Assembly (NCBI GenBank): GCA_021794175.1
Contig: JAJYRI010000016.1
Location: 1 to 35,528 of the forward strand
Length of the DNA: 35,528 nucleotides
Direction of reading: 5' to 3'
From: a bacterium
GTDB lineage: Bacteria > Vulcanimicrobiota > Vulcanimicrobiia > Vulcanimicrobiales > Vulcanimicrobiaceae
The notes beneath the pieces are model-generated. The model was not told the DNA's origin. It saw nothing but the letters and a program-made list of their open reading frames with translations, and did not search any database. Below are positions 1-15,937 of this stretch, in pieces. The translations under genes were made by a program, and so were the position numbers. Each line of letters opens with the position of its first letter. Positions within the stretch are counted from its first letter, which is position 1.

Positions 1-125
1 TCGGCGCGCTGCTGCTCGAACAGAACGACGAATGGCAACTCAACCGGCGGTACATGCAGCTCGAAGGAATGGAGGCCGTCAGCGACAATCAGAGACCCAG
101 GTTGTCAGCGGTCATTACCGGCTGA
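1..125 (+). CDS. IS256-family transposase, C-terminal fragment (cut by window edge)
   Basis: Read from base 3, the frame gives GALLLEQNDEW, then RRYMQLEGME, and a TGA stop at 123-125. The block GALLLEQNDEW followed by a basic residue and RYM is the conserved C-terminal tail of IS256/Mutator-class transposases, which carry out cut-and-paste or copy-paste transposition with a DDE active site. Only about 40 residues are visible, so the catalytic domain and start lie to the left. Whether the full transposase is intact cannot be judged. Confidence rests on the tail motif plus the inverted-repeat-like end just downstream. Confidence 0.8.
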   Translation, partial: GALLLEQNDEWQLNRRYMQLEGMEAVSDNQRPRLSAVITG

Positions 126-175
126 TGTCGACCTCGCCGAGTCGGGGCTCGTACACCACTCCACGGGACACAATC
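1..175 (+). mobile_element. Right end of an IS256-family insertion sequence
   Basis: The window opens inside an IS256-family (Mutator-like) element. Its transposase C-terminus stops at 125. About 30 bases later, the stretch 149-172 (TCGTACACCACTCCACGGGA followed by CACA) has the TACACCAC...GGGACA form typical of IS256-family terminal inverted repeats. Directly after this, the reading frame of a type I restriction specificity subunit resumes, so the element sits inside hsdS. The exact end (about 172-176) and the 8-9 base target duplication cannot be fixed, because the left end lies outside the window. Confidence 0.75.
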
Positions 176-469
176 TTTTTGTGTGTGCTACTTAGGTCGC
201 AGTATTTCCAGCGTTTCATAGCTAGCGCAAGTAGATCAGCTCAAGCAGGATTCAATAAAGGCGATCTTGCGGCGATCAATTTCCCCATGCCACCTATCGG
301 CGAACAACACCGAATTGTTGCGAAGGTCGATGAGTTGACGATGCTGTGTGATCGGCTGGAAGCAAGCCTCGCCGCCGGCGATGGAACTCGCGGTCATCTG
401 CTCAATGCTCTCATCGCCGAGGCGCTGACACCGGATGGTCGCGAACTGAAATTAGCGAGCTCGCCCTGA
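173..469 (+). pseudogene. hsdS: Type I restriction specificity subunit HsdS, C-terminal remnant interrupted by IS256 element
   Basis: HsdS recognises the target DNA sequence for type I restriction-modification complexes. The surviving 3' piece encodes the end of the second target-recognition domain (FLCVLLRSQYFQRFI, then AGFNKGDLAAINFPMPP) and the distal conserved region with the hallmark GEQHRIVAKVDEL and LCDRLEASL helix. It ends in a TGA at 467-469. The open frame can be followed back to base 32, but 32-172 is transposon sequence, so the apparent ATG at 32 is not a genuine start. The N-terminal recognition domain is missing, and no hsdM or hsdR is visible downstream. The system is therefore probably inactive unless another hsdS exists. 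Confidence 0.85.
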
Positions 470-568: not shown

Positions 569-2857
569 TTACGCCTGCAAGGCGTTTACGATCTTGAGGG
601 TTTTCTTCGTGAACCCTTTCAATTCCGTGGGGTCGATTAGGTCTGGCGTCAAGTCTGTGAGGTCCTCTCCATGATGATACTGTTTTGTATATGCGTTGAT
701 CTGATCAAGCTTGTCACAAAGCGCATGGGCGGGGTGCGAAGCGCCACCCTCACGCGTCTTCCGTACGATGTCACCGAGCCAGTCACTGGCAAGAAAGCAA
801 GATGAATAGGTCGCGCGACAATAGGTTTCGAGCACGACTCGCATTTTTCGGATGATGTCGATATGCACGCCCGCACCAGTCGACAGATACGTTTGCAGGT
901 CGTCCATATCGATCGCGGTGCGGCCCTGGCACGCCTTCTCCAGGTCAACTGGGCTGATCTTCGATCCCTGCGAACCGTGATCCACGATCGCTAGCGCAAC
1001 CCGCTCAGCGGGAGAGACTTTGTCCCAAACCTGCTTTAGAAACGTCGCATCGTGGGATAGCACAACTACCTGGGCACATTTGACGCCAACTTTCACTATC
1101 TCATGAATCGTCTGCCGGCGACGAAATGCATCCTGGCTATTGAACGGGTCATCGAATATAGCGATCTTGTTTGTAAGGGCATGATCGCGTTCCAGGTGGG
1201 CAAGAAAAAATGCAAGGGCGAGCGTTGTCCGGTCGCCCGAGCTCAGGGTGTTTTTGAAACTAGGCTGATCGGTTGGGGTCTTGTCGTTGCCAACGTCGAC
1301 GGCGATTTCGTTGATGACGAGTTGGTAACTAGATGTCGGGCTGCCGCCTAAATAGCTGTGCTTGGTTTCGGTGATGATGAAGCCCGCATTGAAGTCACCA
1401 AGCAAATCGTTGATCCGTTGTTCGTATGGTTTCACAACACCTTTGGTGTGGGCGTCTAGCTTATCCCGGGCTGCTTCCTTTCGCTTGTCGATGGCCGCTT
1501 TAGCCGAAACCAGGCCGCAATGGGTGGCACAAAGCGTGGCGACCGGCTCAGTATGTCGATTTTTTATTGCCTGACGGCGCATAAGTTCGGCTTCGGCAGC
1601 TGTCACGTTGACCTTGTCTGCCTCCGTCTTCTTAGCGCTGATTAGGGTATTCACTGCTCGAATCGCATCATTTACCGAATTCGTATCGGCAGTTGCCGCA
1701 CCATAGGCCGTGATTGCTCTCGTGAAGCCCTCGTCCGCCGCGATTGCATCGAGAGGCGCGCCGGCTTTCCGATCGAGCAGAGCTAGCGCTGCCTCACCAA
1801 GACGGCGTGCTGCCGCAGAAATACCGAGCGGCACGACTACAAGAGCCGGATCGAAGGTGCAATATCCTCCCCAGAATTCGATCCCACTCTTGTTCTTTTC
1901 GACTACCATATCGAGGCGGGCCAACGCGGCATCGCCGAAGGCCTGAATCGTCTGAGCCTTCGCGGCTGCGATATCTGATCGGAGAACTTTGTAGCGTTCG
2001 CTGAACACCGCCCGAAATGCCGCGACCAGAGGCAATCCTCGGGTGTCCTGACCACAGAAGGGGCAAATATCGTCGGCCGCGTGCTCGATTCCCTGCGCGA
2101 TCCAATTCCCACCGCTCGCCGTCATGCCGCGGGCAGCCAAATGATCGGCCAGCAGGCTCTCAGCGTCGCTGCTGATATCATCGATGGTGCGTGACAAAAT
2201 GTCGGAAAAACCCTCGGGTATGGCAGGAAGGGTGAGTTCCGAAAGAAGGGCTCGATCTTTGACTACGCTCGCCTGCCGGATAGCATCGACGACCTGCTTC
2301 TGATCGACGATCTGCTGATCGATGGCTGGGGCGATGGGGAGTGCCAAAAATGCTTCAAACGTCATGCCGGTCGGGACATGTGGCTGGATTGCCTTAGCCG
2401 CTGCGCTAATCTCCGCGGCCTTCGTCCGGCTATCTGTCGCTAGCGAGGTCTCTTCCTCCGCCAGCTTCACACCGTCGTCGCCGATGATGACGCGATAAAG
2501 GTTTCGCTTATGGTCGATCTCAACGACCTCGCCGGAATGGATATTTTCAGCTACGAAGGTTCCGTCGAAAATCGAAATGGCGGGGTGCTTGACGCTCCAG
2601 CTTGTACCGTCAAAGCGGGCCTGACCAGAATCGAGCAACAATTCGATAGTCGCAGCATCGGCTATGCCAAGGGTTTTTCGTCCTAGAACATGGGACGCTT
2701 CACCGGTATGTAGTGAACGAAGAATAGCACAGATGGTCGTTTTCCCGTAACCGTTTGCGCCGAGGATAAATGTATACTTGGCAAGCTGCGGATTCCCAGA
2801 TGTCGCCGAGTTTCGGAATCGCCCGACGTTTTTAATCGAGATAATTTTCTGGAGCAT
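569..2857 (-). CDS. RloC-like AAA_13 ATPase with CxxC zinc-hook motif; possible anticodon nuclease
   Basis: This 762-residue protein has an SMC/Rad50-type split ATPase: Walker A GANGYGKT (33-40), signature LSSGDR (538-543), Walker B IAIFDDP (565-571) and H-loop LSHD (600-603). Between the halves lies a long helical region with CPFCGQ (265-270), which resembles a zinc hook. This matches the AAA_13 family, which includes RloC and PrrC, tRNA-cutting proteins linked to type I restriction loci. The C-terminal helical domain has R673 and E677 four residues apart and H728/H729 further on. That arrangement recalls the Arg/Glu/His set of PrrC-type anticodon nucleases, but I infer this and have not shown it. 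The start is well supported by AAAGGAG five bases upstream. The gene converges on the broken hsdS. A generic restriction-linked AAA_13 protein without nuclease activity is the main alternative. Confidence 0.75.
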   Translation of the reverse strand: MLQKIISIKNVGRFRNSATSGNPQLAKYTFILGANGYGKTTICAILRSLHTGEASHVLGRKTLGIADAATIELLLDSGQARFDGTSWSVKHPAISIFDGTFVAENIHSGEVVEIDHKRNLYRVIIGDDGVKLAEEETSLATDSRTKAAEISAAAKAIQPHVPTGMTFEAFLALPIAPAIDQQIVDQKQVVDAIRQASVVKDRALLSELTLPAIPEGFSDILSRTIDDISSDAESLLADHLAARGMTASGGNWIAQGIEHAADDICPFCGQDTRGLPLVAAFRAVFSERYKVLRSDIAAAKAQTIQAFGDAALARLDMVVEKNKSGIEFWGGYCTFDPALVVVPLGISAAARRLGEAALALLDRKAGAPLDAIAADEGFTRAITAYGAATADTNSVNDAIRAVNTLISAKKTEADKVNVTAAEAELMRRQAIKNRHTEPVATLCATHCGLVSAKAAIDKRKEAARDKLDAHTKGVVKPYEQRINDLLGDFNAGFIITETKHSYLGGSPTSSYQLVINEIAVDVGNDKTPTDQPSFKNTLSSGDRTTLALAFFLAHLERDHALTNKIAIFDDPFNSQDAFRRRQTIHEIVKVGVKCAQVVVLSHDATFLKQVWDKVSPAERVALAIVDHGSQGSKISPVDLEKACQGRTAIDMDDLQTYLSTGAGVHIDIIRKMRVVLETYCRATYSSCFLASDWLGDIVRKTREGGASHPAHALCDKLDQINAYTKQYHHGEDLTDLTPDLIDPTELKGFTKKTLKIVNALQA

Positions 2858-2862
2858 GTGGA

Positions 2863-2869
2863 CTCCTTT
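2863..2869 (-). promoter_or_regulatory. Strong Shine-Dalgarno for the AAA_13 ATPase
   Basis: On the minus strand AAAGGAG sits five bases before the ATG at 2855-2857, which fixes the start of the RloC-like gene. Confidence 0.7.
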
Positions 2870-3020
2870 AAACGCTATTCATACAAGTCGAGGGATGGTT
2901 CGCATAGGCATCAGCTATCGTTCTCCCTCGCGCAGTTAAAAAATGCCGCGTATCCAACGAACATCGCGCGGCAACGGGATACCTAATGCCAGGACAAACC
3001 AGTGTGCAACGAATCACATT

Positions 3021-3878
3021 CTATTTACCACCCTCGTCGCTGAGCGCGTAGTATGATGCGGCAATGACATCACAAAATGCTACTATGTCCAGGATCGCCG
3101 ACATAATTGGTAAATCAGGGCTTAATTCATCTAGAAATGGAGATCGCATCGCTTCGCGCGCATTCAAAAAGCGTCCGTTGAGTTCGTTGTTGGCATGGAT
3201 AACTTCGCTGACATAGCCCCTGGCAAGGTCAAGATGCCTATTGAGAGGCAGCGCTTCGTTTTCGCCCAGCCCGAGCCGAATAAGCTCACCTAGCTTACTG
3301 CTTGTAACATCGCTCGGTTCGGAATGGCGTTTTCCGGTCGGTCCGGGCTTGGTATATGTGTAACGTTTATGCCCCGTGAGCTTAAGGGCTTCCGCAATGT
3401 TGCTATTGTCACAAATCTTACCGTGTTTTGCATATTTATATAGATCGTCGCTTTTCCAGAATGCTGGGCTGGCGTAGATCGCCTTCGCGCGGGCCCCACT
3501 GAACTGTTGTAATTTCTCTAGCGCGAGTTGCTGATGAGGCACGACTGCGTACCGAAAATACTCGCACCCCCACGAACTCCACTCAGAAGCAGCGTGTGAC
3601 GAAATGTATTCCGGGCGCTTATACTGGACGAAAAGATTGAGCTTAAATCGGGGCAACCGGCCGGAGGCAATGCGGAGTATTGATTCAATCTCACGGATAA
3701 CGATTCCGCGCATTTTCCCAAACTTGGGCAGAAATAGAGATCTATGCGGAACAAAAAAGGCATCGTCAAAGCCGAGTATCGATTCCAGTACCTGGCCGGG
3801 CGAAAAGGTTTGCCATGTATCGGCTAGTTCTCGCCCAAAGTACTTCTCGTAGGTTTTTTCTTCGAACTCCGCTTGCAT
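3021..3878 (-). CDS. Unrecognised defence-island protein with possible D...QxK nuclease motif
   Basis: I do not recognise the family. The frame stays open to a TTG at 3906-3908, but the ATG at 3876-3878 is preceded by CAGGA seven bases upstream and is the better start (285 residues). Numbered from the TTG, the N-terminal third holds conserved-looking acidic helices, then LGFDDAFF (45-52) and a hydrophobic strand ending NLFVQYKRPEY (91-101). A hydrophobic strand ending in Q-x-K after a G-x-D turn is the layout of Mrr-like PD-(D/E)xK restriction nucleases, so a nuclease role is possible. The 47-residue spacing is longer than usual. The gene is clearly less GC-rich than the core genes, lies in the same strand order as the RloC-like gene, and has no visible signal peptide or membrane segment. 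Confidence 0.6.
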   Translation of the reverse strand: MQAEFEEKTYEKYFGRELADTWQTFSPGQVLESILGFDDAFFVPHRSLFLPKFGKMRGIVIREIESILRIASGRLPRFKLNLFVQYKRPEYISSHAASEWSSWGCEYFRYAVVPHQQLALEKLQQFSGARAKAIYASPAFWKSDDLYKYAKHGKICDNSNIAEALKLTGHKRYTYTKPGPTGKRHSEPSDVTSSKLGELIRLGLGENEALPLNRHLDLARGYVSEVIHANNELNGRFLNAREAMRSPFLDELSPDLPIMSAILDIVAFCDVIAASYYALSDEGGK

Positions 3879-3885
3879 TAATTTG

Positions 3886-3890
3886 TCCTG
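3886..3890 (-). promoter_or_regulatory. Shine-Dalgarno choosing the ATG start of the island hypothetical gene
   Basis: CAGGA on the minus strand lies seven bases before the ATG at 3876-3878. It favours that start over the upstream in-frame TTG at 3906-3908. Confidence 0.55.
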
Positions 3891-4062
3891 ATGGATCGGC
3901 GCGGACAAACTATCGTCTTTTGCCCCCTGATCGGCGAAGGCGGTTTGGCGCCATCTGAATCACCTAATGCGCTGTAATATGTCTGTTGCCTTCTCGCGGG
4001 CGCGCCGATATCTTTCCCAATAGGCCTCGCTAGTACCTCGCAAAGACTAGGGAATGGCAAGG

Positions 4063-7000
4063 TCATTTCACCGCCCCGTCTACGCAAGGTGAGCCGTTGT
4101 ACGGGCAGGCGGCGCAGTGGCGACCGGGCGTGGTTAGGTCGGACGTTAACGCTCCCGCATCGTGAACCAATCGTTCGAGCGCGTTGGATATCGGGGGCTC
4201 TGTGTCGCGAAACTCTGCGCGGTCATCGCTCAGGCGCAGCAAGCGCGCGCGAACCGTTGCACCTGGATACTCTTCGCGCACGGCGCGGACGTAGAGATCG
4301 AGTTGCAGGGCATAATGCTCGTCATCGACGACGGTCCCCGTCTTGTAATCGATTACCTGGATCGTGCCGCTTGTATCGCGTGCGATCAGATCGATCGCGC
4401 CGTACAGCTCGGCGCCAGCGACGACGTGGTTGAACTCGCGCTCGGCGGCTAGCGGTTCTAGATCGTGCAGCGCCGCGACGGCGTGCTGCGCGAATGCGAG
4501 CGCGCGGTCACGATCGGCATCGCGAAGATTTGCGAACTCCGCGGCGGCCGCGTCAAGCGCGCTTTCGACGGCAATCGCTTCGCCGTCGATCCGCGCGAGC
4601 GCCCAGAGTTCGAGCGCCCGATGCACGAGCGAACCGAACGAGGCGGCATTCAGATGCTGCCCGCCATCGCCGTTCCAATCGGCGCTGCTGCGGCGCGGCG
4701 AACTCACGTCGGCAACGTGCAGGCGGTAGCGGTAGCGCGCGAAGCGCGGGCAAGTCTCGAACGTAGCGAGTGCAGTGAATGAGATGCGCGGAGGCGCGAG
4801 TTCGCCGAGGGGCAGCGGGATCGGCTCGCCCGGGCGCACGCGTTTCGCTGCCGGGAGTGACGCCTTGGGAGGCGGCTGCGCGAGATCCGCTTGCGGCCAC
4901 GGTGCAGCATACTCGACGAGCGCACCGACCGGGGCGTAGCGCTGTTGCGTCGACGGCGAGGTGACGTAGAGACGGTCGCGAGCGCGCGTGCATGCGACAT
5001 ACAGCACCCGTGCAGCCTCGCGTTCTTCTTGTTCCGTTCGCGGATTACGTTCGAGCAGTTGTCCCGTTGCGGGATCGTAGCTCCTTTTCATCATCACCGC
5101 GCGCAGCGTTGGATGGTCGTCGCAATCGCGGCTGAGGACGAGCGCGCCGTTGCGATCGTCACGCCGCACGGCCGCCGGCGGAGCCTGGCCTTTGTAGTGG
5201 CGATTGTCGGCGCCCGCGACGAAGACGACCGGCCACTCCAAACCCTTGGCTTGATGCACGGTCATCACCGCTACGCCGTCGATATCCAGATTCGCTTCCT
5301 CGATCGCCTCATCGAACTCGATGCTGCGCTCGAGATACGAGACGAACGCGGGCAGGCGCGCATCGTCGTTTTCGGCGGCGAAACGTTGTGCGAGCGCTTC
5401 GAATGCACGCAAGTTCGCAATACGCGCGTCGGCCTGTCCGTCAAGCGCGTACGACGCGGCGAGCGGCACTGTGGCGAACAGGCGCCGCAGCGCCGCGGGA
5501 GCGGTCTCGCTGCGTCCTGGTATCAACGCCTCGAGCCACGTGCGTAACGCGCACAGGTGCGCGTCATCTGTCGGATGGTCGTAGATTGCGACGGGATCGA
5601 ACGGTGCGAGGCGCGCAAGCGCGGCGTCCGAGAGCCCGATTTGCGGGGACTGCAGAACGCGCACGAGCGCAAGCGTATCGTTCAAGACGACGATAAGCCT
5701 CAGCCAGGCGCGTGCGTCGCGTATCTCCGGCATGTCGAGCAAGCCAGTGCGGCGGTCGAGCGCGACGGGAAGCCCGCGCCTCGCCAGCGCCTCGACATAG
5801 CGTTGCGCGTGGGTGCGTTTGCGCAGGAGGATGGCCATATCCGCGACGCACGTGCCGCCGGCCCGTAGGCGCGCGGCCTCGTCGGCAATCGCGGCAGCCT
5901 CTTCCTCCACGCGTGCCGCCATGTTGCCGAGGGCGTCGTCGGTGTTGCGAACGAATATGCAAGGCTCGTCGCTCGCTCCGCGCACGGCCTGCAGACGGTC
6001 AGCGTCGTCGGCCATCCCTTGATTCGCGAGTATGGCGTGGGCGGCATCGACAATCTGCGTGCGCGAGCGACGGTTCCACTCAAGGCGATAGCAGGCGTCA
6101 GCCGACGCGCCGAACGCGTGCATGATCTGCGGATCGGCGCCGTTGAATCCGTAGATCGACTGGCGAAAATCGCCAACCACGGTGAGGTTGCGCATCGCGT
6201 GTTCGAGGTGATCGCGGTCGCCGAATATCTCGTGCAGAAACGCAAGTTGCAGTTCGGCGGTGTCTTGAAATTCATCGACCAGCACGTGACGCCAGCGCGC
6301 GCGCAACGTCGCCGCGACCTGCGGATGCTCGCGCAGCAACCGCACGGTGAGGCTCAGCAGGTCGCCGTAGGTGGCGGCGTGGCGCTCGTGCAGTTCGCGA
6401 TCGAACTCGCGTAACACGGTGGCAATCCAGCGCACGTTGCTGCGTTCGCGTACGGCCTCCTGTGCGCGCTCCTCGGCGCTGCGTTCGGATTTTGGGTCGC
6501 AATCTATCCGCGGTTTGCGCGTACCGGGCTTCCACACTTGGCCCCACGACTGTGCGGCGAGGGCGTCGGCGGCGGCTAGCGCGTCTGCTTCGAACGCATC
6601 GGGCGTGACGCCGCGGTTTTTCAATTGGAGGGCCAAGCGCGCGAGCGAATCGCGCAGTGGCTTAGGGCGAATCTCGGCGAGAGGCAAGGCGCTCGCGTCG
6701 GCGTCGATGTCCGCGAACGCGCGGTCGAGCACTTCGTCGAAAATGGCACGCGCTTCGCCGTCTGTAACGGCGCGCGGCGGCGCTTCGAAACCGCATGCGT
6801 AGGCGAATTCTGCCAAGATGCGAGCCGCGAGGCCGTGGATCGTCGCGCAGGTAACGCCTTGCGGATCGATCTCCGGATCCAGGCGTGCGCGCGCGGCGTC
6901 GAGCGTGCGCGCGATGCGCTCGCCGATCTCGGCGGCGGCCTTTCGCGTGAACGTCACCACGAGCAATTCGTCGGCGCGCAACGTTTGCGAGGCAATCAAG

Positions 7001-7155
7001 TAGAGTGCGCGGTAGGCGAGCGTCGTGGTCTTGCCGGTGCCCGCGCCCGCATCGATAGCGCGGCGCCCGTCGATCGGGGCGACAATGGCGGGCCGCTGGT
7101 CCTCCGAGGGTGGGCGCTCGCCGAAGAGCGCGTCGTCGAAAATAATCTCAGTCAT
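4063..7155 (-). CDS. UvrD-type helicase with C-terminal RecB-family nuclease and Fe-S cysteines (AdnAB-like subunit, second gene)
   Basis: The 1030-residue product is a DNA-end-processing helicase-nuclease. Superfamily 1A motifs are intact: Walker A AGAGTGKT (36-43), motif II VDEFQDT (293-299), motif III VVGDFRQSIYGF, motif V TVHQAKGLEW (632-641) and motif VI YVACTRARDRLYV (719-731). The C-terminal nuclease has H845, GAID (D922), VIDYKTG (D936, K938) and Q951. C802, C1014, C1017 and C1024 fit the Fe-S cluster that staples AddB and AdnAB nuclease domains. The ATG at 7153-7155 overlaps the previous gene's stop by four bases, so the longer frame to 7203 is not used. Two consecutive subunits that each carry motor plus nuclease is the AdnAB plan of mycobacteria. 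I cannot say which subunit is AdnA and which is AdnB. Confidence 0.85.
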   Translation of the reverse strand: MTEIIFDDALFGERPPSEDQRPAIVAPIDGRRAIDAGAGTGKTTTLAYRALYLIASQTLRADELLVVTFTRKAAAEIGERIARTLDAARARLDPEIDPQGVTCATIHGLAARILAEFAYACGFEAPPRAVTDGEARAIFDEVLDRAFADIDADASALPLAEIRPKPLRDSLARLALQLKNRGVTPDAFEADALAAADALAAQSWGQVWKPGTRKPRIDCDPKSERSAEERAQEAVRERSNVRWIATVLREFDRELHERHAATYGDLLSLTVRLLREHPQVAATLRARWRHVLVDEFQDTAELQLAFLHEIFGDRDHLEHAMRNLTVVGDFRQSIYGFNGADPQIMHAFGASADACYRLEWNRRSRTQIVDAAHAILANQGMADDADRLQAVRGASDEPCIFVRNTDDALGNMAARVEEEAAAIADEAARLRAGGTCVADMAILLRKRTHAQRYVEALARRGLPVALDRRTGLLDMPEIRDARAWLRLIVVLNDTLALVRVLQSPQIGLSDAALARLAPFDPVAIYDHPTDDAHLCALRTWLEALIPGRSETAPAALRRLFATVPLAASYALDGQADARIANLRAFEALAQRFAAENDDARLPAFVSYLERSIEFDEAIEEANLDIDGVAVMTVHQAKGLEWPVVFVAGADNRHYKGQAPPAAVRRDDRNGALVLSRDCDDHPTLRAVMMKRSYDPATGQLLERNPRTEQEEREAARVLYVACTRARDRLYVTSPSTQQRYAPVGALVEYAAPWPQADLAQPPPKASLPAAKRVRPGEPIPLPLGELAPPRISFTALATFETCPRFARYRYRLHVADVSSPRRSSADWNGDGGQHLNAASFGSLVHRALELWALARIDGEAIAVESALDAAAAEFANLRDADRDRALAFAQHAVAALHDLEPLAAEREFNHVVAGAELYGAIDLIARDTSGTIQVIDYKTGTVVDDEHYALQLDLYVRAVREEYPGATVRARLLRLSDDRAEFRDTEPPISNALERLVHDAGALTSDLTTPGRHCAACPYNGSPCVDGAVK

Positions 7156-10034
7156 GAGTTCACCGCTGTCAACGCGCCGTCGCAGATGGTGGAGAAGGCG
7201 CAACGCTCGCAGGTGCGCCCGCTTTGCGTCACGCCGAAACGATCGATCGCGCCGCTTATGCGCTGCACGAAGCCCCGTTCAATCGCCTCGTCGATCGCCG
7301 CGAACAGCGTGCCGTCACCGACCAGCGTATCGTCGAGAATGGGGCCTTCTCCGTCTTTTCCACGCAGGTAGAGTAGCGCGACCGATTCGGCCTCGGAAAC
7401 GGCGCGGCGGTAGAGCGGCAGCTGCACGCTCGCGATATCGGGCGCCGCTTCGTCGTAGAGCGTGCCCTCCGCGATGGCGGCGATGAAGCGCTCGGACTGT
7501 TTGCCGAATGCAGCCTTCATCCGGCCGGATTTCACATCGACGATGCGCGTGCCGCCGTCATCGAAGCGATCGATACGGTCGATCTTCCCGCGAAGAGTGA
7601 AAGGGCCGAGCGGCATCTGGATGCGTTGTTCGATTGCGTCGACGGTGAACGGGCGCTGCGCGCCTGTTCCGGCGAGTTGTTCTGCATAAGCCGCAAGCAT
7701 ACGATCCGCGCTTGCGGCGGAAGCGCTGCGTTCGAGCGCGCTTTCGAAGGCGTCGCCGAGCTCGGCCCAGACCTCCTCGCGGATGCGACGCAGCTGCGCA
7801 ATGGACCGCTCGCGCTCGAACGATGCATCGACGCGTGCATGCTCGCGGTGGAAGCGTTCGATGCACAGGTGCAGAGCGGTACCGAAGCTGCGTTCGAACG
7901 CGGTTTCACTCGGTAAGCGCAGGATCGAGGCGTAGAAGAATTTGCGTTCGCACGTGAACCAATGGTCGATGCGGGTGACGCCGATGTCCGCGGGCAGCGG
8001 CACCGGTTCCGGCGTACATGCCGTGGGCAGTTGGTCGGCGCCGGCGTATGTGAGATCGGCGTAATACGGCGGCGTTGAGGCGAGCGCCTCGCGGTGATCG
8101 ACGGGCAAGAAACGCGTCGGGTTCTGCGGTGAGCCATCGAGCGAGGCTCGTGCGGATGTCACGGTGAGCGCATGGCGCGCGCGCGTTAGTGCGACGTACC
8201 AAAGCGAGCGTTCTTCGGCGAGGCGCTCGCGCGGTGTTGCCCCGAGATCGCAGCCATTCGTGCGCGCGAGCGTGAGATCGCTATCAGGGAGCACGCCGTT
8301 GCGCGCGAGTTCCACCGGCAGGCGACCGTCGGCCGCATCGGCCACGACCACCGCGTCGAACTCCAGGCCCTTGGCGCCGTGGATCGTGAGAATGCGAACG
8401 ACGGCGGTATCTTCGTGTTCGCGGTCGTCGTTCAGACCTGCGGCATGCCGCTCGAAGAGTTCGAGCAATTCGACACAACGGAGTGGACGCTGCAGGCTCA
8501 CGTGCAAGCGGACAAGGTCGTCGATGGCGCCGAGTACGCGCTTAAGCCGCGCGTTCGCGCGCGCGGCGGCGACATCGTCGAGTGCGACCGCGGCTCCTAG
8601 CAGGTCGAGATCGCGCACGAGGCCGCGCGCGATCGCCGCGAGGTCGCCGTGCGACCATGCTTCGCGCGCGGAATGCAGCGCCTCGCCGATGCGCGCATGC
8701 GTTACGCGACCGTCGCCGACCGTGCGCAGCACATCGAGCGCATGCTCTAGCGAGAGGGGTGGTGCCGTCGCGAACGCACGTGCCATGCGTAAGCGCGGCA
8801 GGCCGAATGCGAAGGAGGAGAAGAGGTCGCGCCAGCGGTCTGCATCGCGTTCGTCGGCGAGGGCCCGCAGCGCATCGAGCAGCACGCGAACGATGGGTTC
8901 GTGCACGATCGCGTCGCCGCCGACGAGAGAGGCCCGGATGCCCCGGCGTTCGAGTTCGGCACGGACGAATGGCCCCAGCGGTTCGAGCGCACGCAGCAGT
9001 ACGCCGATCTCGCTGTGGGGGATGCCCGAGTCGAGCGCGTCCTGCACGCGTTCGGCCACAAGCGCCGCTTCGTCGAGTGGGGTAGCCGCCGTCTCGGCGC
9101 GCACAGTTCCGGTTGCGGTAGATTGCGTGTCGATTCGGCTTTGTGGCAAGAGCCCGGGTGTGGCGTTAACGAGCGCGCATATCTCCGGCGCGCAGCGGTG
9201 CGAAATGCGCAGCGGTACGCGGCGCATGTGCAGCGATATGGCGGCACGTTCGATCGCGTCACGCGCGGCGCCGCGAAAGCCGTAGATCGCCTGGGCGGCG
9301 TCGCCCACGGCGAAAATCACCGACGGAATCGCCTCGAGTAACGCTAGCTGCTGTGGATCGGTGTCTTGAAACTCGTCGACAAGGATGTGCGCATAGCGAT
9401 CGCGCAGCGCCGCGTACAATCGCGAGGACGGATCGGCCGCGAGGCGAGCGGCACGGGTGACGAGATCGTCATAGTCGGTGACGCCGAGCATCCTGCGCAG
9501 GTCGCGTAGTGTATCGGCGACGCGTAGCAGGTCGCGCGCAGCGTTACTGCCCTCACGTTCGAGAGCGGCGCGCACGTTGTCGTCTGCGCGGGCGAGGTCG
9601 GCGACGTAGCGTTCGGCGTCGCGGGCAAAGGCCGACGAGCGAAAGACCTGCGGCGCGAAGCCGTGCGGTTCCACGCGTGCGAACGCTTCGAGTAGAAGTA
9701 CTTCGCTTGCGGGTTTTTCGAGCAGACGGCCAGAGATGAAACCAGGTGTATCAATTTCAAGCAGACGGCTTGCGAAACCGTGGAAGGTGCGCACCTCGAT
9801 GCGGGGCGCCTCGTGCGGCATCGTTTGAGCGATGCGTTCACGCAACTCATGCACCGCTCGGCGCGAGAAAGTGAGCGCGAGGATGCGATCCATTGCGATG
9901 CCACGGTCGTGAATCAGGTGAGCGATGCGCGCAATGAGCACGCGCGTTTTTCCGGCGCCCGGAGCTGCTTCGATGACAAGGTTCCCTACATCGTCGAACG
10001 CGGCGGCGCGCTGCTCGGGGGTAAGATCGATCAT
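7152..10034 (-). CDS. UvrD-type helicase with C-terminal RecB-family nuclease and Fe-S cysteines (AdnAB-like subunit, first gene)
   Basis: The 960-residue protein begins with Walker A APGAGKT (24-30). It continues with motif II LVDEFQDT (218-225), motif III VGDAAQAIYGFRGA (243-256), motif V TIHGAKGLEFD (550-560) and motif VI YVALTRAR (613-620), all typical of an active UvrD/Rep motor. The C-terminal nuclease shows H722, GKIDRID (D819), VDVKSGR (D833, K835) and QLPLY (871-875). C695, C942, C945 and C951 (C...CX2CX5C) form the expected Fe-S cluster set. It overlaps the SbcC-like gene upstream and the second helicase-nuclease downstream by four bases each, so the pair is probably made in equal amounts and works as a heterodimer. 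Automatic annotation may call it PcrA or AddA, but AddB-type partners lack a working motor and this neighbour does not. Confidence 0.85.
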   Translation of the reverse strand: MIDLTPEQRAAAFDDVGNLVIEAAPGAGKTRVLIARIAHLIHDRGIAMDRILALTFSRRAVHELRERIAQTMPHEAPRIEVRTFHGFASRLLEIDTPGFISGRLLEKPASEVLLLEAFARVEPHGFAPQVFRSSAFARDAERYVADLARADDNVRAALEREGSNAARDLLRVADTLRDLRRMLGVTDYDDLVTRAARLAADPSSRLYAALRDRYAHILVDEFQDTDPQQLALLEAIPSVIFAVGDAAQAIYGFRGAARDAIERAAISLHMRRVPLRISHRCAPEICALVNATPGLLPQSRIDTQSTATGTVRAETAATPLDEAALVAERVQDALDSGIPHSEIGVLLRALEPLGPFVRAELERRGIRASLVGGDAIVHEPIVRVLLDALRALADERDADRWRDLFSSFAFGLPRLRMARAFATAPPLSLEHALDVLRTVGDGRVTHARIGEALHSAREAWSHGDLAAIARGLVRDLDLLGAAVALDDVAAARANARLKRVLGAIDDLVRLHVSLQRPLRCVELLELFERHAAGLNDDREHEDTAVVRILTIHGAKGLEFDAVVVADAADGRLPVELARNGVLPDSDLTLARTNGCDLGATPRERLAEERSLWYVALTRARHALTVTSARASLDGSPQNPTRFLPVDHREALASTPPYYADLTYAGADQLPTACTPEPVPLPADIGVTRIDHWFTCERKFFYASILRLPSETAFERSFGTALHLCIERFHREHARVDASFERERSIAQLRRIREEVWAELGDAFESALERSASAASADRMLAAYAEQLAGTGAQRPFTVDAIEQRIQMPLGPFTLRGKIDRIDRFDDGGTRIVDVKSGRMKAAFGKQSERFIAAIAEGTLYDEAAPDIASVQLPLYRRAVSEAESVALLYLRGKDGEGPILDDTLVGDGTLFAAIDEAIERGFVQRISGAIDRFGVTQSGRTCERCAFSTICDGALTAVNS

Positions 10035-12757
10035 GCAACGCTCGGGCGGCGCAGCAGATCATCGAGATCGATACGATGTGCTCCCTTCGGCATCGATGCA
10101 TAGCGGTCAGGGTCGCAGCCGGTGAGGATCACCTGCAGGTTGTCCTGTTCGGCCTCAGCCAGCACCTCGAGAATCCGATAGAGTCGAACGGGATCGCAGA
10201 AGGTGAGCGCATCGTCAAGAATCACCACTTGCGGCTCGTCTTTGGCGAGCAGCGAACCCATAGCGAGCCGCATGGCGACCTCGATCTGTTCTTGCTCGCC
10301 GCCCGAAATCGTGTCGGAGATTGTCTTTCCGTTCCAAGCGGTCGTGCCGAACGAGAGTCGCATCATGGCCTTGTCGTCGAGGTCGAAACCGATCCGCACG
10401 TCGTCACGCGACATGATACGGCGCGCGAAGGCCGTTGCGTTGGCGGCGAGCGGGGCATTGACCGCCTCAGCGATCGCGCGCGAGGCTGCTTCGACGTGGT
10501 CGTGCAGCAGCTTAGCCGCTCTCGCGTCGCGCAAGGCGACGGCTCTGCGGCGCTCAACCGTTTCGAGATCGGCCTCCGCTATCGCAAGCGTCTCGTACGC
10601 GCCGGCATTCGTTTCGAGCCTGGCGCGGAGCCGGGCAGCCTCAGTCCTATCTTTCTCGATCTCGACGCTGAGTTGCTCTATCGAATGCTGAATGCTTTCG
10701 TATTCACCAACTGGATCACCGGGTATCTCGGCGCGCTGTTCGCGAAGATCGTCACGTTTTGCGGTAGCCTGTAGCTCCTGCAGACCGATCCCCTTGACCT
10801 TTTCAAGGAGATTCTGCGACTCGGCAAGGCTGACGACGTTGCGATACCGTGCGATCTCGATGTGTTTGCTTTGCTGTTCTTGTTGCAGCCGTTCTCGGTC
10901 GGCGAGGAGCTCTTTGCGTTGCGTTTGTTGGGCCTCGATCTTCTCGTTCGCGGCGGTGAGCGCTAAGATTGCCGCTTCTCGGCGAGGTTCGATCTGCACG
11001 GTCAGGGCCTCCGGATCAGGGCTGTTCGCAGCCCATTCCGGATAGCGGTCGAGCAAATCTTGGCGGTTCGCTCGTCGGCTTTCGAGCGAGGCGATCAGTG
11101 CGTCGGGTTCTTCGCCGTTGAGGAGTCCGCTCAGGCGCGATTCGACATCTGCGAGCTCACGCATGTAGTTGGCACGATCGGCACGCCGGGTTTCAAGAGT
11201 TTCGATGGGTGCATCGCCATAGGGAGCGAGAAGTGTGGAGAGCGCTTCGTTCGCGGCGTTAAGTGCATCGCGGAGTTTGGCTGCAGATTCCATCGGGCTA
11301 GAGAAGCGGAGTGTACCGACCTCTAAAATATCGAGGTCAATTTTGCCTAAGCCGATGACGAGAGCCTCTGTCCCGGCCTTACACTGGCGTTCTCCTTCCG
11401 GAGATCCCGAACGAATTCGAAGCGTAATATCGTGCTTGGGGGTGAAACGTAGGGTAAGCGATTCGCTCTCCACTCGCTGACGCGCTTCTCGTTGTACGCC
11501 GTGCGCCTTAACGAGTGCGTTCCAAGCGTCGTCGTCGGGAGCGATGACGGCCGCGACCTTGCGGATCGCCTCTTCGCGGAGCGCGCGTAGTTCGTCGATC
11601 GTAGCCAATCGATGTCCGAACTCACTCAGCGTCTCGTTCGCTAAAAGGAATCTGCGTGCATCGGCAACGCGTGCTTCCTCGGCGGCTACCGCCGTACTTT
11701 CCTCGTGCGCGCGGCCCTGATCGTCGAGGGCACGTTCGATTGCGCCTTCAGCCTCGGTGATCCGTTCAGCGATTTGCGCGATGCTTCGATCCAGCGCAAG
11801 AATCTGCGGCTCGATTGCCTTCGTGCGGTCCTGTGCTTCGTTCAGTGCATCGCGCTCTTTGGAGATACGGCCGAGTTCGGCAGTAGCGCGAATCGCGTCT
11901 TGCTCCGCAAGCTCAATGCGATGATCGAGTTCGCGAACTCGGTCAACCACGCCCTTGAGCTCATCAAGTCGTCGGCGCTGATCGATACGTTTCATGCTGC
12001 GAATATCGAGTAGTGTATTGATCTCGCCGAACGCCTTGCGCTGTTCGAGCACTAGCTGATTAGCCTCACACGCATGTTCCCGTCGTTCGCGTGCTTGGGT
12101 AGCGGCCTTCTCGAGCGCGGGGATGTTGGCGCTGGGCTGCCCTTTCGCGTAGTTTTTCCCTTTAGGTTCCCAATAGCTCTTGAATCGTTCGTCGATCGCG
12201 TCACGTATTAGCGACTCCGCGGATGAGACCGTGGCCGAGCCCGGGGCGATGAGAGAACGCAGATGCTGTTCCTGTGCAGTCGGCAGCTTGCCGAGCGCCG
12301 GAGCCGATTGGCGCGCCCATAGAACGGCTCCTAGGCCGTATTGTTCCGGTTTTGCCACCCCTTTGCCGGGCCGATCAAGCGCAAGCGCTTTATCCAGCCA
12401 CGCTTCAACCTCTTCGCCGTCGGCGATGGCCACAAACTCGCCACCTTCGTCACGTTCGAGTTTCGCGTATACGCCCTTGAGAAAGGCTTTGCGGATCCGA
12501 AAGCGGCCATCGTTGCCCTTCAACGTAACTTCGACCGTCGGCGTGATGTCGTAAGCGACATGGCGCAGCAATGCGCTAATCGTATCGCCGGAGGTCTTGT
12601 GACTCTGGACGAGCGCGGCGACGAGCCCATCGATGAGCGTGGACTTGCCGGTGCCGTTCGGCGCGACGATGACGTTCAAGCCAGGCTGCAATCCTTTAAT
12701 TTCGATGCGGTTGCGGAAATGACGGATGCCTTCGAGCGCAATCGACTCGATGATCAT
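10031..12757 (-). CDS. SbcC/YhaN-like SMC-family ATPase without zinc hook
   Basis: The 908-residue protein has N-terminal Walker A APNGTGKST (32-40), two long coiled-coil arms (about 215-430 and 490-745), signature TISGGEQEQ (816-824) and Walker B VVILDDA (844-850). It pairs with the SbcD-like gene just upstream (ATGA overlap), as Rad50 pairs with Mre11, and so should gate an end-processing nuclease. It differs from canonical SbcC in three ways. There is no CxxC hook; the midpoint (about 434-487) is a short strand-rich segment. Walker B reads LDDA rather than the usual Asp-Glu. The usual H-loop His is replaced in LTGCDPDRY (878-886). These features are closer to the YhaN branch of the family. 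The role in break repair is inferred from family and neighbours. Confidence 0.8.
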   Translation of the reverse strand: MIIESIALEGIRHFRNRIEIKGLQPGLNVIVAPNGTGKSTLIDGLVAALVQSHKTSGDTISALLRHVAYDITPTVEVTLKGNDGRFRIRKAFLKGVYAKLERDEGGEFVAIADGEEVEAWLDKALALDRPGKGVAKPEQYGLGAVLWARQSAPALGKLPTAQEQHLRSLIAPGSATVSSAESLIRDAIDERFKSYWEPKGKNYAKGQPSANIPALEKAATQARERREHACEANQLVLEQRKAFGEINTLLDIRSMKRIDQRRRLDELKGVVDRVRELDHRIELAEQDAIRATAELGRISKERDALNEAQDRTKAIEPQILALDRSIAQIAERITEAEGAIERALDDQGRAHEESTAVAAEEARVADARRFLLANETLSEFGHRLATIDELRALREEAIRKVAAVIAPDDDAWNALVKAHGVQREARQRVESESLTLRFTPKHDITLRIRSGSPEGERQCKAGTEALVIGLGKIDLDILEVGTLRFSSPMESAAKLRDALNAANEALSTLLAPYGDAPIETLETRRADRANYMRELADVESRLSGLLNGEEPDALIASLESRRANRQDLLDRYPEWAANSPDPEALTVQIEPRREAAILALTAANEKIEAQQTQRKELLADRERLQQEQQSKHIEIARYRNVVSLAESQNLLEKVKGIGLQELQATAKRDDLREQRAEIPGDPVGEYESIQHSIEQLSVEIEKDRTEAARLRARLETNAGAYETLAIAEADLETVERRRAVALRDARAAKLLHDHVEAASRAIAEAVNAPLAANATAFARRIMSRDDVRIGFDLDDKAMMRLSFGTTAWNGKTISDTISGGEQEQIEVAMRLAMGSLLAKDEPQVVILDDALTFCDPVRLYRILEVLAEAEQDNLQVILTGCDPDRYASMPKGAHRIDLDDLLRRPSVA

Positions 12758-13875
12758 GATGAAACCTCAACACCTTGGCGGGCGGCGATATCGTAAAGTA
12801 GTTCGAGTGCGTCCATCGCAGCGGATTCAGCCTCGGCTTCTGAAGCGAGTTTGCGCGCAACGTTGCGCAACGTGCCGATGGGAAGCACATCGATCCAACG
12901 GTCGTCGTCGGGCGCGCTACGAACCGCGGAGTCGTTGACGTCGAACCAAAGAAAGCCGGCAGTGGCGAGCGCACGAAGCTTGGTAAGCCCCTGCATCGCT
13001 TCGGCGCGCAACGTGCCGTTGAGGATGAGGCGCACGATATGGCGCCCACGAGGATCGAGCGCACGCAATTCATCGCAGAGTAATGTCAAACCATCGGTGG
13101 AAAGGTCCGTTTGCGTACGGAGCTGCCATTTCAACTCGCCGACGGGAATCGGCGTGACGCGCGGTGCGGCACCCGGCGTGTCGATCTCGACGAGCACGAT
13201 GTTGCCGGGGTTCTTGTCGTCGAACGCCGTGCGTTCGTGGGTGCCGCTGTAAACCGTGCGGATCGCACCTGCAGCATCGGGGAACTCGAGATAGCCATGC
13301 CAATCGCCGAGGGCAAGGTAGTCGAGCCGCATTCGTTCGGCTGCATCGTGTGCGATCGGGAAGTTCAGTTCGTCGTCACCGACACCCGCACCGCGCAGCC
13401 CGCCGTGGGCGACCCCGATGCGAAATCCTTGGGTATCGAGGTGTTGCCCGATCCATTGCGTCGCGTCTTGCGTCCCGTGCTTCGATGAGACCGGGCACGG
13501 AAATAGTGTGACTCCGTCGGCGGCCGTAATAGGCTCAGGTGCGAGCATACGGACGATGTTCGGCGCGTCGCTCCAGAGGTGCTCGCGCCGCCAGAGCGAG
13601 GCGGCGTAGGCGGGATCGTGGTTGCCGGGCAAAAAAAAGACGGGCCTTTCGAAGACGGCAAGCGTGCGCGCTACGCGTTGCACGAGGGCTTCGGGTACGG
13701 CGAGGTCGTCGAACACGTCGCCCGCGACGATAATAAACTCAGCCTCCCGCTCGCGTGCAAGCGACACGAGACGATCGAGGGATGCAAAGCGGGCTTCGCG
13801 CACTCGCTCTGCCTCGGTCCCGAACTGGGCGGCCGGCATGCCAATTTGCCAATCCGCAGTGTGGATAAACTTCAT
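12754..13875 (-). CDS. SbcD/Mre11-like (YhaO-type) DNA repair metallophosphoesterase
   Basis: This is the first gene of the repair operon, 373 residues long. Calcineurin-like phosphoesterase motifs appear in order: HTADWQIG (5-12, D8), GDVFDD (52-57, D53), GNHD (84-87), a VAHGG histidine (H157) and LGDWHGY (189-195, H193). These bind two metal ions (Mn in Mre11/SbcD) and cut DNA ends or hairpins when coupled to the Rad50-like partner. The usual D-x-H of motif I is D8-W-Q10, so glutamine replaces a metal-binding histidine. I believe some YhaO-like relatives share this. The start ATG (13873-13875) follows a GGTGGTG stretch. The 241-base gap before the divergent ABC-F gene must hold the operon promoter, though I see no convincing -35/-10 pair. 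Confidence 0.82.
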   Translation of the reverse strand: MKFIHTADWQIGMPAAQFGTEAERVREARFASLDRLVSLAREREAEFIIVAGDVFDDLAVPEALVQRVARTLAVFERPVFFLPGNHDPAYAASLWRREHLWSDAPNIVRMLAPEPITAADGVTLFPCPVSSKHGTQDATQWIGQHLDTQGFRIGVAHGGLRGAGVGDDELNFPIAHDAAERMRLDYLALGDWHGYLEFPDAAGAIRTVYSGTHERTAFDDKNPGNIVLVEIDTPGAAPRVTPIPVGELKWQLRTQTDLSTDGLTLLCDELRALDPRGRHIVRLILNGTLRAEAMQGLTKLRALATAGFLWFDVNDSAVRSAPDDDRWIDVLPIGTLRNVARKLASEAEAESAAMDALELLYDIAARQGVEVSS

Positions 13876-14060: not shown

Positions 14061-14096
14061 CTCTCGACGGCAGCCGGGAAGGAGCGCCCGCCCGTT

Positions 14097-14114
14097 CCCC
14101 CGCAACGGCGGGGG
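14097..14114 (+). promoter_or_regulatory. GC hairpin masking the ABC-F ribosome binding site
   Basis: CCCCCGC (14097-14103) and GCGGGGG (14108-14114) form a perfect 7-bp stem with an AACG loop, ending two bases before the ATG at 14117. The G-run is the only Shine-Dalgarno-like sequence near the start, so the stem should hide the ribosome binding site. Confidence 0.5.
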
Positions 14115-14116
14115 CG

Positions 14117-15937
14117 ATGGAACTGCTGCGCTTCGAGGATCTCGAGTGTCGGTACGGGGCGCGCGATGTGTTCGCGGGGCTCGGCGGCGTGCTGCGCGAC
14201 GGCGAGCGCATCGCCCTAGTCGGCCCGAACGGAGCCGGAAAATCCTCGCTGCTGCGGATGCTCGCCGGCGTCGATGCACCCAACGGCGGCCGCATCGTCC
14301 GGGCGCGCGACGCGCGCATGGGGTATCTCGCGCAGTCGGTCGCCGACGAAACCGAGGCGACGCTGCAAGAGCTCGTCGACGGCGCGCTCGCGCGCGTTCC
14401 CGACGACGAATACGATCGCAAGCGCAAACTTTTACGCACGATGCTCTCGGCATTCGGCTTCGCGCCCGAAGAGTACGCGCGACCGTTGCGCGAGTTCTCC
14501 GGCGGACAACGCTCGAAAGGAGCGCTCGCGCATCTGCTGATCGACGAGCCCGATTATCTGATTCTCGACGAGCCGACAAACCATCTCGATATCGGCACCG
14601 TGCGCTGGCTGGAAAACACGATCGCCGCCGATAAGCGTGCCTACATCATCGTTTCGCACGACCGCTATTTTATCGATCGCGTTGCAACGCAGATTTGGGA
14701 GCTCGACCGCGGCACGCTCTATGTCTATCCCCCGGCCTCGCGGGCGTATACGGCCTATCTCGAAGCGCGCGAGGTGCGTCGGGAAAACGAACGGCGAGCC
14801 TACGAAACCTACATCGCCGAACGCGACAAGCGTCGCGCGACGATCGCCGGCTTACGCGCCACGCACACCTCGTCGGATTACAAACAGGTCCGCAGCCGCG
14901 AACGACAGCTCGCGCGAACCGAAGCCGAGATCGTCGTGCCGGAGCCGCCGCCCGACGCCGCACGCATTAACGTTGCGCTCGCGGCGCACCGCCGCGTTAC
15001 CGGCGGCTTTGCCTTCGAACTCCGCGGTCTCACGAAAGGCTATGCAGCGCCGCTCTTTAGCGGATTGGCGATCGACGTGCAGCAGGGTGAACGCATCGCC
15101 ATCGTCGGCCCCAACGGCGCCGGTAAATCGACGTTGCTCTCGATTCTTGCCGGCGAACGCACGCCCGATGCGGGGACGGTGCGTTACAATCCCGCCGCAC
15201 GCGTCGCCTATTTCGCGCAAAACGCACAAGAGCAACTCGACCCCGATGCAAGCGCGATCGATGCGGTGCTCTCGGTTGGCAACGTCGCACCCGAGCGCGC
15301 GCGCGGCTTACTCGGGCGCATCGGAATCTCCGGCGAGATGCAGGAGCGCCCGGTGCGCTCGTTCTCCGGCGGCGAACGGCGGCGCATCATGCTCGCGCGC
15401 TTGATGGCGCAGAATGCAGATGTGCTGTTGCTCGACGAACCGACGAACGATCTTGATATCGCCAGCCGCGAAGCGCTCGAATCGGTGCTCGACGAATATC
15501 CCGGCACCCTGGTCGTCGTGTCGCACGACCGTTATCTGCTATCGCGCCTCGCGGAGCGGGTGCTCTGGATCGAGAACGGCCAGTGGGGCGTACTCGAAGG
15601 CTACGATGCGTACGAACGCTTCGTGCGCGAACGTGAAGATCGCCCGACCAACGCTGCGGGCGAGGCAGAACGCCCGAAGACGACGCGCCTGACGCCCCTC
15701 AAAGTGCGTTCGAAACTGATGACGCAGATCGCAGCGGCCGAGCGCGAAATCGCATCGCTCGAAGCATGCAAGGCGCAGATCGACGAACTCTTCGCGCAAC
15801 CCGATCTCTACGAAGATCGCGAACGCGTCAAAGCTCTACAGGCGGAGGTCGAGAGCATCGCCCTCCGTCACGACGGCGCGCTCGCACGCTGGGAGGAGCT
15901 ACATACGCAGCTGGAGGCCGCAACCGTCGCCGAGTAA
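14117..15937 (+). CDS. ABC-F family ATPase (translation factor of the Uup/EttA type)
   Basis: This 606-residue soluble protein has two ABC domains and no membrane segments. Domain 1 has Walker A GPNGAGKS (36-43), signature FSGGQ (127-131), Walker B LILDEPTNHLD (148-158) and H181. Domain 2 has Walker A GPNGAGKS (331-338), signature FSGGE (416-420), Walker B LLLDEPTNDLD (437-447) and H470. The linker (about 215-290) is a charged helical pair, the region that reaches the ribosomal peptidyl-transfer centre in ABC-F proteins. A C-terminal coiled coil (about 525-602) resembles the Uup-type tail. ABC-F proteins bind the ribosomal E site and help stalled or initiating ribosomes; a few protect against antibiotics. 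The sequence alone does not separate these roles. Two hairpins precede the gene, hinting at regulated expression. Confidence 0.88.
   Translation: MELLRFEDLECRYGARDVFAGLGGVLRDGERIALVGPNGAGKSSLLRMLAGVDAPNGGRIVRARDARMGYLAQSVADETEATLQELVDGALARVPDDEYDRKRKLLRTMLSAFGFAPEEYARPLREFSGGQRSKGALAHLLIDEPDYLILDEPTNHLDIGTVRWLENTIAADKRAYIIVSHDRYFIDRVATQIWELDRGTLYVYPPASRAYTAYLEAREVRRENERRAYETYIAERDKRRATIAGLRATHTSSDYKQVRSRERQLARTEAEIVVPEPPPDAARINVALAAHRRVTGGFAFELRGLTKGYAAPLFSGLAIDVQQGERIAIVGPNGAGKSTLLSILAGERTPDAGTVRYNPAARVAYFAQNAQEQLDPDASAIDAVLSVGNVAPERARGLLGRIGISGEMQERPVRSFSGGERRRIMLARLMAQNADVLLLDEPTNDLDIASREALESVLDEYPGTLVVVSHDRYLLSRLAERVLWIENGQWGVLEGYDAYERFVREREDRPTNAAGEAERPKTTRLTPLKVRSKLMTQIAAAEREIASLEACKAQIDELFAQPDLYEDRERVKALQAEVESIALRHDGALARWEELHTQLEAATVAE

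Follow-up and report, generated by a model that had tools for sequence, protein, structure and literature searches.

A patchily distributed, island-borne operon joins an unusual SbcD/SbcC-like gene pair to genes of an AdnAB-like helicase-nuclease pair outside Actinobacteria

The DNA analyzed here, to which we refer as the window, is a stretch of 35,528 nucleotides from a bacterium of the family Vulcanimicrobiaceae. On its minus strand, from position 13875 down to 4063, it contains four complete open reading frames in the order sbcD–sbcC–H1–H2, with H1 and H2 denoting two helicase-nucleases:

12754..13875, minus strand: SbcD/Mre11-like metallophosphoesterase, 373 aa (Pfam Metallophos)
10031..12757, minus strand: SbcC/Rad50-like coiled-coil ATPase, 908 aa (Pfam SMC_N/AAA_23)
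11078..11608, minus strand: segment at the coil tip of the SbcC-like protein, replacing the hook (AF2 model)
7152..10034, minus strand: H1, AdnA-type helicase-nuclease with Fe-S cysteines, 960 aa (Pfam, motifs, trees)
4063..7155, minus strand: H2, AdnB- or AddA-type helicase-nuclease with Fe-S cysteines, 1030 aa (Pfam, motifs, trees)

Stop and start codons overlap by four bases, ATGA, at each of the sbcD/sbcC, sbcC/H1, and H1/H2 junctions. The start of H2 is the ATG at 7155; the TTG start at 7203 given by the ORF tool is superfluous, since it is the ATG that yields the third overlap. A sequence-only reading had described four genes linked by three 4-base overlaps, with intact motor and nuclease motifs and Fe-S cysteines in both helicases, and the junctions, the Pfam domains, and our motif inspection bear this out.

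H1 and H2 each consist of the Pfam domains UvrD-helicase, UvrD_C, and PDDEXK_1, and both keep the SF1 motifs I, Ia, II, III, V, and VI, the nuclease motifs G-I-D and D-x-K, and a cysteine tail of the type CxxC-x5/6-C, which in H2 reads CAACPYNGSPC. AdnAB is defined by a UvrD-like motor and a C-terminal RecB-like nuclease in each subunit (PMC13309787), and this plan, with the motor at the N-terminus, is found in both proteins. We calculated trees of 49 and, in a reduced version, of 27 proteins, with AdnA and AdnB of Tsukamurella and Nonomuraea, AddA, PcrA, UvrD, and UvrD2 as references, and RecB in the larger tree only. In both trees, H1 clusters with the actinobacterial AdnA at moderate support (SH-aLRT 91 and 85), and its identity as an ordinary PcrA/UvrD was rejected (AU p=0.003). 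H2 comes out close to both AdnB and AddA, and neither grouping was rejected (AU p=0.15 for AdnB, p=0.25 for AddA). The phylogeny thus did not break up the pair into an ordinary AddA and an unrelated PcrA. The earlier assignment to the mycobacterial AdnAB plan holds for the domain plan of both subunits and for the position of H1; it does not hold for the Fe-S cysteines in both subunits, which are a departure from that plan, as a CxxC tail was not found in the AdnB of Tsukamurella and Nonomuraea, the two actinobacterial sequences compared. Like the actinobacterial AdnAB, the pair has two UvrD-like motors, each with a RecB-type nuclease, in the order AdnA then AdnB. Unlike in AdnAB, the second subunit, H2, carries Fe-S cysteines and may be of either AdnB or AddA type, and the host lies outside Actinobacteria, the phylum to which AdnAB was confined in a survey of bacterial repair systems (PMC6452273). 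H1 is an AdnA-type helicase-nuclease outside Actinobacteria. The pair also differs from AddAB, as there is no degenerate AddB-type motor.

The SbcD-like protein scores 49.8 bits against the NCBIfam model TIGR00619 (sbcD), which is below the cut-off of 77.65, and yet its predicted structure has the Mre11 phosphoesterase fold: in a Foldseek search with the AF2 model (pLDDT 94), the top PDB matches were Mre11/SbcD structures (best E 8.6e-17), and E. coli and T. maritima SbcD/Mre11, including hairpin- and DNA-bound states, were matched with E-values of 1e-14 to 1e-17. Five rows from plasmid records were left out of the structure-prediction alignments. The canonical D-x-H and G-H-x-H motifs are replaced by DWQ and GDWH, so that two metal-ligand positions of Mre11 are altered, one from H to Q and one from H to D. 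Both replacements are near-invariant across the subfamily, and D8, D53, N85, H86, H157, D191, and H193 are invariant in alignments of 54 and 59 relatives.

In the SbcC-like protein, Walker A (APNGTGKS), the signature (SGGEQE), and Walker B (VVILDD) can be recognized. A CxxC zinc hook is absent from its coil and also from 42 of the 43 SbcC relatives compared. The coil tip is predicted to form a helix, a five-stranded beta domain, and a second helix, with a mean pLDDT of 85 for the segment and of 60-74 for the beta strands. The segment could be aligned in 41 and 46 SbcC relatives in two alignments, and a fold search of the PDB with the beta domain gave no match at E<0.05. A conserved beta domain is thus predicted to stand where the zinc hook of SbcC would be. 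With SbcCD/Mre11-Rad50, the window pair shares the Mre11 fold, the coiled-coil ABC ATPase, and the arrangement as two genes with a 4-bp overlap; it differs in the DWQ/GDWH motifs, the Walker B LDD, the missing CxxC hook, the coil-tip beta domain, and the sub-cut-off sbcD score. A strict SbcD/SbcC identity was rejected for score, metal motifs, and missing hook. The pair belongs to a distinct subfamily, and SbcD/SbcC-like activity is not assured, because two metal-ligand positions are changed and the hook is missing. What the operon brings to light is a hook-less SbcCD subfamily, marked by altered metal motifs and by an uncharacterized domain at its coil tip.

The link between SbcCD and a resection enzyme is already known from Bacillus and is not new. 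In Bacillus subtilis, the putative operon addB-addA-sbcD-sbcC has sbcDC behind addBA, and SbcC and AddAB are non-epistatic there and act in separate pathways (PMC1533848). As in Bacillus, SbcCD and a two-subunit helicase-nuclease are here encoded in a single transcription unit; unlike in Bacillus, the gene order is reversed and the pair is AdnA-type instead of AddAB. Furthermore, the Bacillus operon occupies a standard housekeeping location, whereas the window operon is patchy and borne on an island. It is an optional, island-carried version of the Bacillus-type repair-gene grouping, made of unusual protein subfamilies. Neither its location on an island nor the atypical nature of its SbcCD pair had been recognized in the sequence-only reading.

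The surroundings of the operon are as follows:

2..469, plus strand: C-terminal fragment of an HsdS-like type I restriction specificity protein, inside which the contig starts (PADLOC Specificity_I, E 6e-17)
569..2857, minus strand: AAA_13 ATPase, 762 aa, matching the PADLOC candidate PDC-S06 (Pfam E 4e-28; PADLOC E 1e-56)
3021..3908, minus strand: 295-aa protein (ORF) of low GC (GC3 0.54), an island neighbor outside the operon
14074..14275, plus strand: repeated 5' end of the ABC-F gene, right edge of the island (99.5% copy at the end of contig C118)
14117..15937, plus strand: ABC-F ATPase, native gene flanking the hotspot (NCBIfam ribo_prot_ABC_F)

The 295-aa protein had no match in Pfam, NCBIfam, or PADLOC; together with the co-directional PDC-S06-like ATPase (569-3908), it may be a separate defense pair beside the HsdS fragment. 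The DNA to the right of 14074 is native, with 80-89% DNA identity and synteny to genomes of the same genus, and contamination was rejected on these grounds. In one of these genomes (G008), sucA and the ABC-F gene are divergent and directly adjacent, and in four others (G002, G004, G006, and G009), different inserts lie between them. A 99.5% copy of the opening 202 bases of the ABC-F region stands at the end of C118, beside sucA, and in G009, a 2.9-kb insert is flanked by a comparable duplication of some 110 bases. The region upstream of the ABC-F gene is an insertion hotspot of the genus, with the 5' end of the gene duplicated around the insert in G009 and probably also in the window genome. 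These repeats fit either an insertion that carried a copy of the ABC-F 5' end, or, in the case of C118, a strain variant without the island. Repeats of this 5' end were located at 14074-14275 of the window, at 2200-2296 and 5192-5287 of locus L051, and at 1-202 of locus L052. In the sister species G002, the 5' end of sbcD survives at the same site as 74 degraded codons, and an OLD/GajA-like ATPase comes next; the module was, therefore, present in the genus at that site and has decayed elsewhere.

The arrangement of the four genes turned out to be barely conserved. Among 99 genomes of the family, the SbcC-like gene was found in two (G000 and G104), and the order sbcD–sbcC–H1–H2 is directly seen in one and inferred for one other. 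Helicases of the AdnAB-like type (P0001/P0002-like) were found beside none of 80 close SbcD loci in GTDB genomes, some of which have poor gene calls. Six further genomes of the family have H1–H2 pairs arranged in this order (in G016, the contig is cut within H2), as do most genomes of the sister class f3; such pairs are also found in order f2 of the phylum. The H1–H2 homologues of six related genomes have no SbcCD beside them. Some of the close AdnAB-like pairs lie at ordinary chromosomal sites, in G102 by dnaX-ybaB-recR, and in G029 and G096 in the vicinity of a tryptophanyl-tRNA-synthetase-like gene. The AdnAB-like pairs and the SbcCD subfamily are hence usually separate, and each half evidently works without the other, since H1–H2 homologues exist without SbcCD and the SbcCD subfamily elsewhere without AdnAB.

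The inferred second instance comes from G104. Its sbcD and the H1 of its congener G102 sit behind the same flank, which includes a WYL regulator as well as a small gene in divergent orientation, with an identical layout up to a shared Shine-Dalgarno sequence, GAGGATCGG, just before the start codon. In G102, the flank is followed by H1–H2–dnaX–ybaB–recR. In G104, the contig with sbcC (C84) and the contig with dnaX (C126) end facing each other, and neither H1 nor H2 was found in the assembly. The simplest reading is that G104 also has the order sbcD–sbcC–H1–H2, with H1–H2 inside the assembly gap. The two genomes offer a natural comparison: one and the same regulatory flank is directly followed by the SbcD–SbcC cassette in G104 but not in G102, which makes the coupling of end-opening and resection testable.

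The SbcD–SbcC gene pair of this subfamily is widespread in Pseudomonadota and is also found in other groups. On a conjugative Sphingobium plasmid (L065, 6698-13737), it follows a TM0106-type nuclease-helicase, with a WYL regulator nearby, and on a Rhizobium plasmid (L066, 2893-12631), it follows a DUF4011-helicase-REase protein. In other hosts, the genes next to SbcCD relatives are of the restriction (type I or ISP), OLD-like, or HEPN-helicase kind. Eight species of Paraburkholderia have the pair with no obvious defense neighbors, as judged by gene size and order alone. Scans of genome contigs and viral contigs with the SbcC protein alone gave no matches, and when viral contigs were scanned with SbcD, one close SbcD–SbcC locus came up, with no helicase nearby. 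In G055, which belongs to the same phylum, a single-chain UvrD-helicase-nuclease, a YhaO-like SbcD, and an SbcC-like protein are encoded with 4-bp overlaps in one operon (L048, 1682-8435), a second and unrelated helicase-nuclease/SbcCD operon. The Sphingobium, Rhizobium, and G055 loci resemble the window operon in that a helicase-nuclease gene lies beside SbcD–SbcC, but their helicases belong to families unrelated to H1–H2, and the SbcD of G055 is of the ordinary DIH type.

On balance, we favor the view that the operon is accessory, moves horizontally, and serves to process or degrade DNA ends. Its role is most likely an accessory one because the window genome has a second, separate, genus-conserved resection-type pair of a UvrD-like and a PDDEXK protein (contig C142), and because of the patchy distribution and the variable location; given the C142 pair, the operon probably acts as a supplement, directed at damaged or foreign linear DNA, and not as the sole break-repair system. 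The architecture and the Bacillus precedent favor end-opening followed by resection or degradation. The SbcD/SbcC-like pair would bind blocked, hairpin, or protein-capped DNA ends and open them endonucleolytically, and the AdnAB-like pair would then load onto the cleaned end, unwind the duplex with two 3'-5' motors, and degrade or resect both strands with its two RecB-type nucleases. We infer the nuclease and helicase activities and this order of action. Hand-over would occur via the shared substrate and not in a stable four-protein complex. A joint complex, as had been suggested from the shared transcription unit, is not implied: the halves are usually apart, and it does not follow from co-transcription, because the Bacillus SbcC and AddAB are non-epistatic despite their putative operon.

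The operon is possibly anti-phage. As a dedicated anti-phage or anti-plasmid system, in which the SbcCD-like pair detects atypical ends or structures in invading DNA and the AdnAB-like pair destroys that DNA, it is a possible if rather unlikely candidate. The copy in the window shares its insertion hotspot with the HsdS remnant and the PDC-S06-like ATPase; G002 has the OLD/GajA-like ATPase behind the decayed sbcD; SbcCD relatives adjoin the helicase-nuclease, WYL, restriction, OLD-like, and HEPN-helicase genes described above; a WYL regulator flanks the related G104/G102 locus; and the SbcC distribution is very patchy. However, close AdnAB-like pairs occupy ordinary chromosomal places (G102, G029, G096) and are present in most genomes of f3, the Paraburkholderia pairs lack obvious defense neighbors by gene size and order, and no PADLOC model fits the four-gene set. 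The four proteins gave generic helicase and ATPase matches only, and identity with a known anti-phage system was rejected, as no component set matched. What the operon shares with Gabija and Lamassu is a UvrD-type helicase together with an ABC-type ATPase nuclease, or else a Rad50-like ATPase, but it has a different gene set without the TOPRIM of GajA and without an LmuA effector. Defense-type neighbors and WYL regulators thus favor destruction of foreign DNA, whereas the ordinary chromosomal sites of several relatives favor repair.

A broader proposal, which we regard as speculative and unlikely, is that the hook-less DWQ/GDWH SbcCD proteins are a distinct Mre11-Rad50 branch that swaps unrelated helicase-nucleases (AdnAB-like, TM0106-like, DUF4011-type) in mobile, WYL-associated DNA-end-sensing systems against mobile genetic elements, with the window operon as the AdnAB-type member. 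That two independent repair modules became co-transcribed by chance joining, with no functional coupling, would agree with the separate occurrence of the halves in relatives and with the Bacillus non-epistasis, but it is quite improbable in view of at least four other kinds of helicase-nuclease linked to SbcD–SbcC (Bacillus AddAB, G055, Sphingobium TM0106-type, Rhizobium DUF4011), the three tight overlaps, and the probable second instance in G104.

Two further loci were noted in passing. In Legionella londiniensis (L087, 4751-13754), HsdR, an SMC-like ATPase, and then SbcD–SbcC of the subfamily are encoded in one direction, and on a Deinococcus plasmid (L173, 845-11106), a WYL regulator and BREX genes come after an AddAB-like pair.
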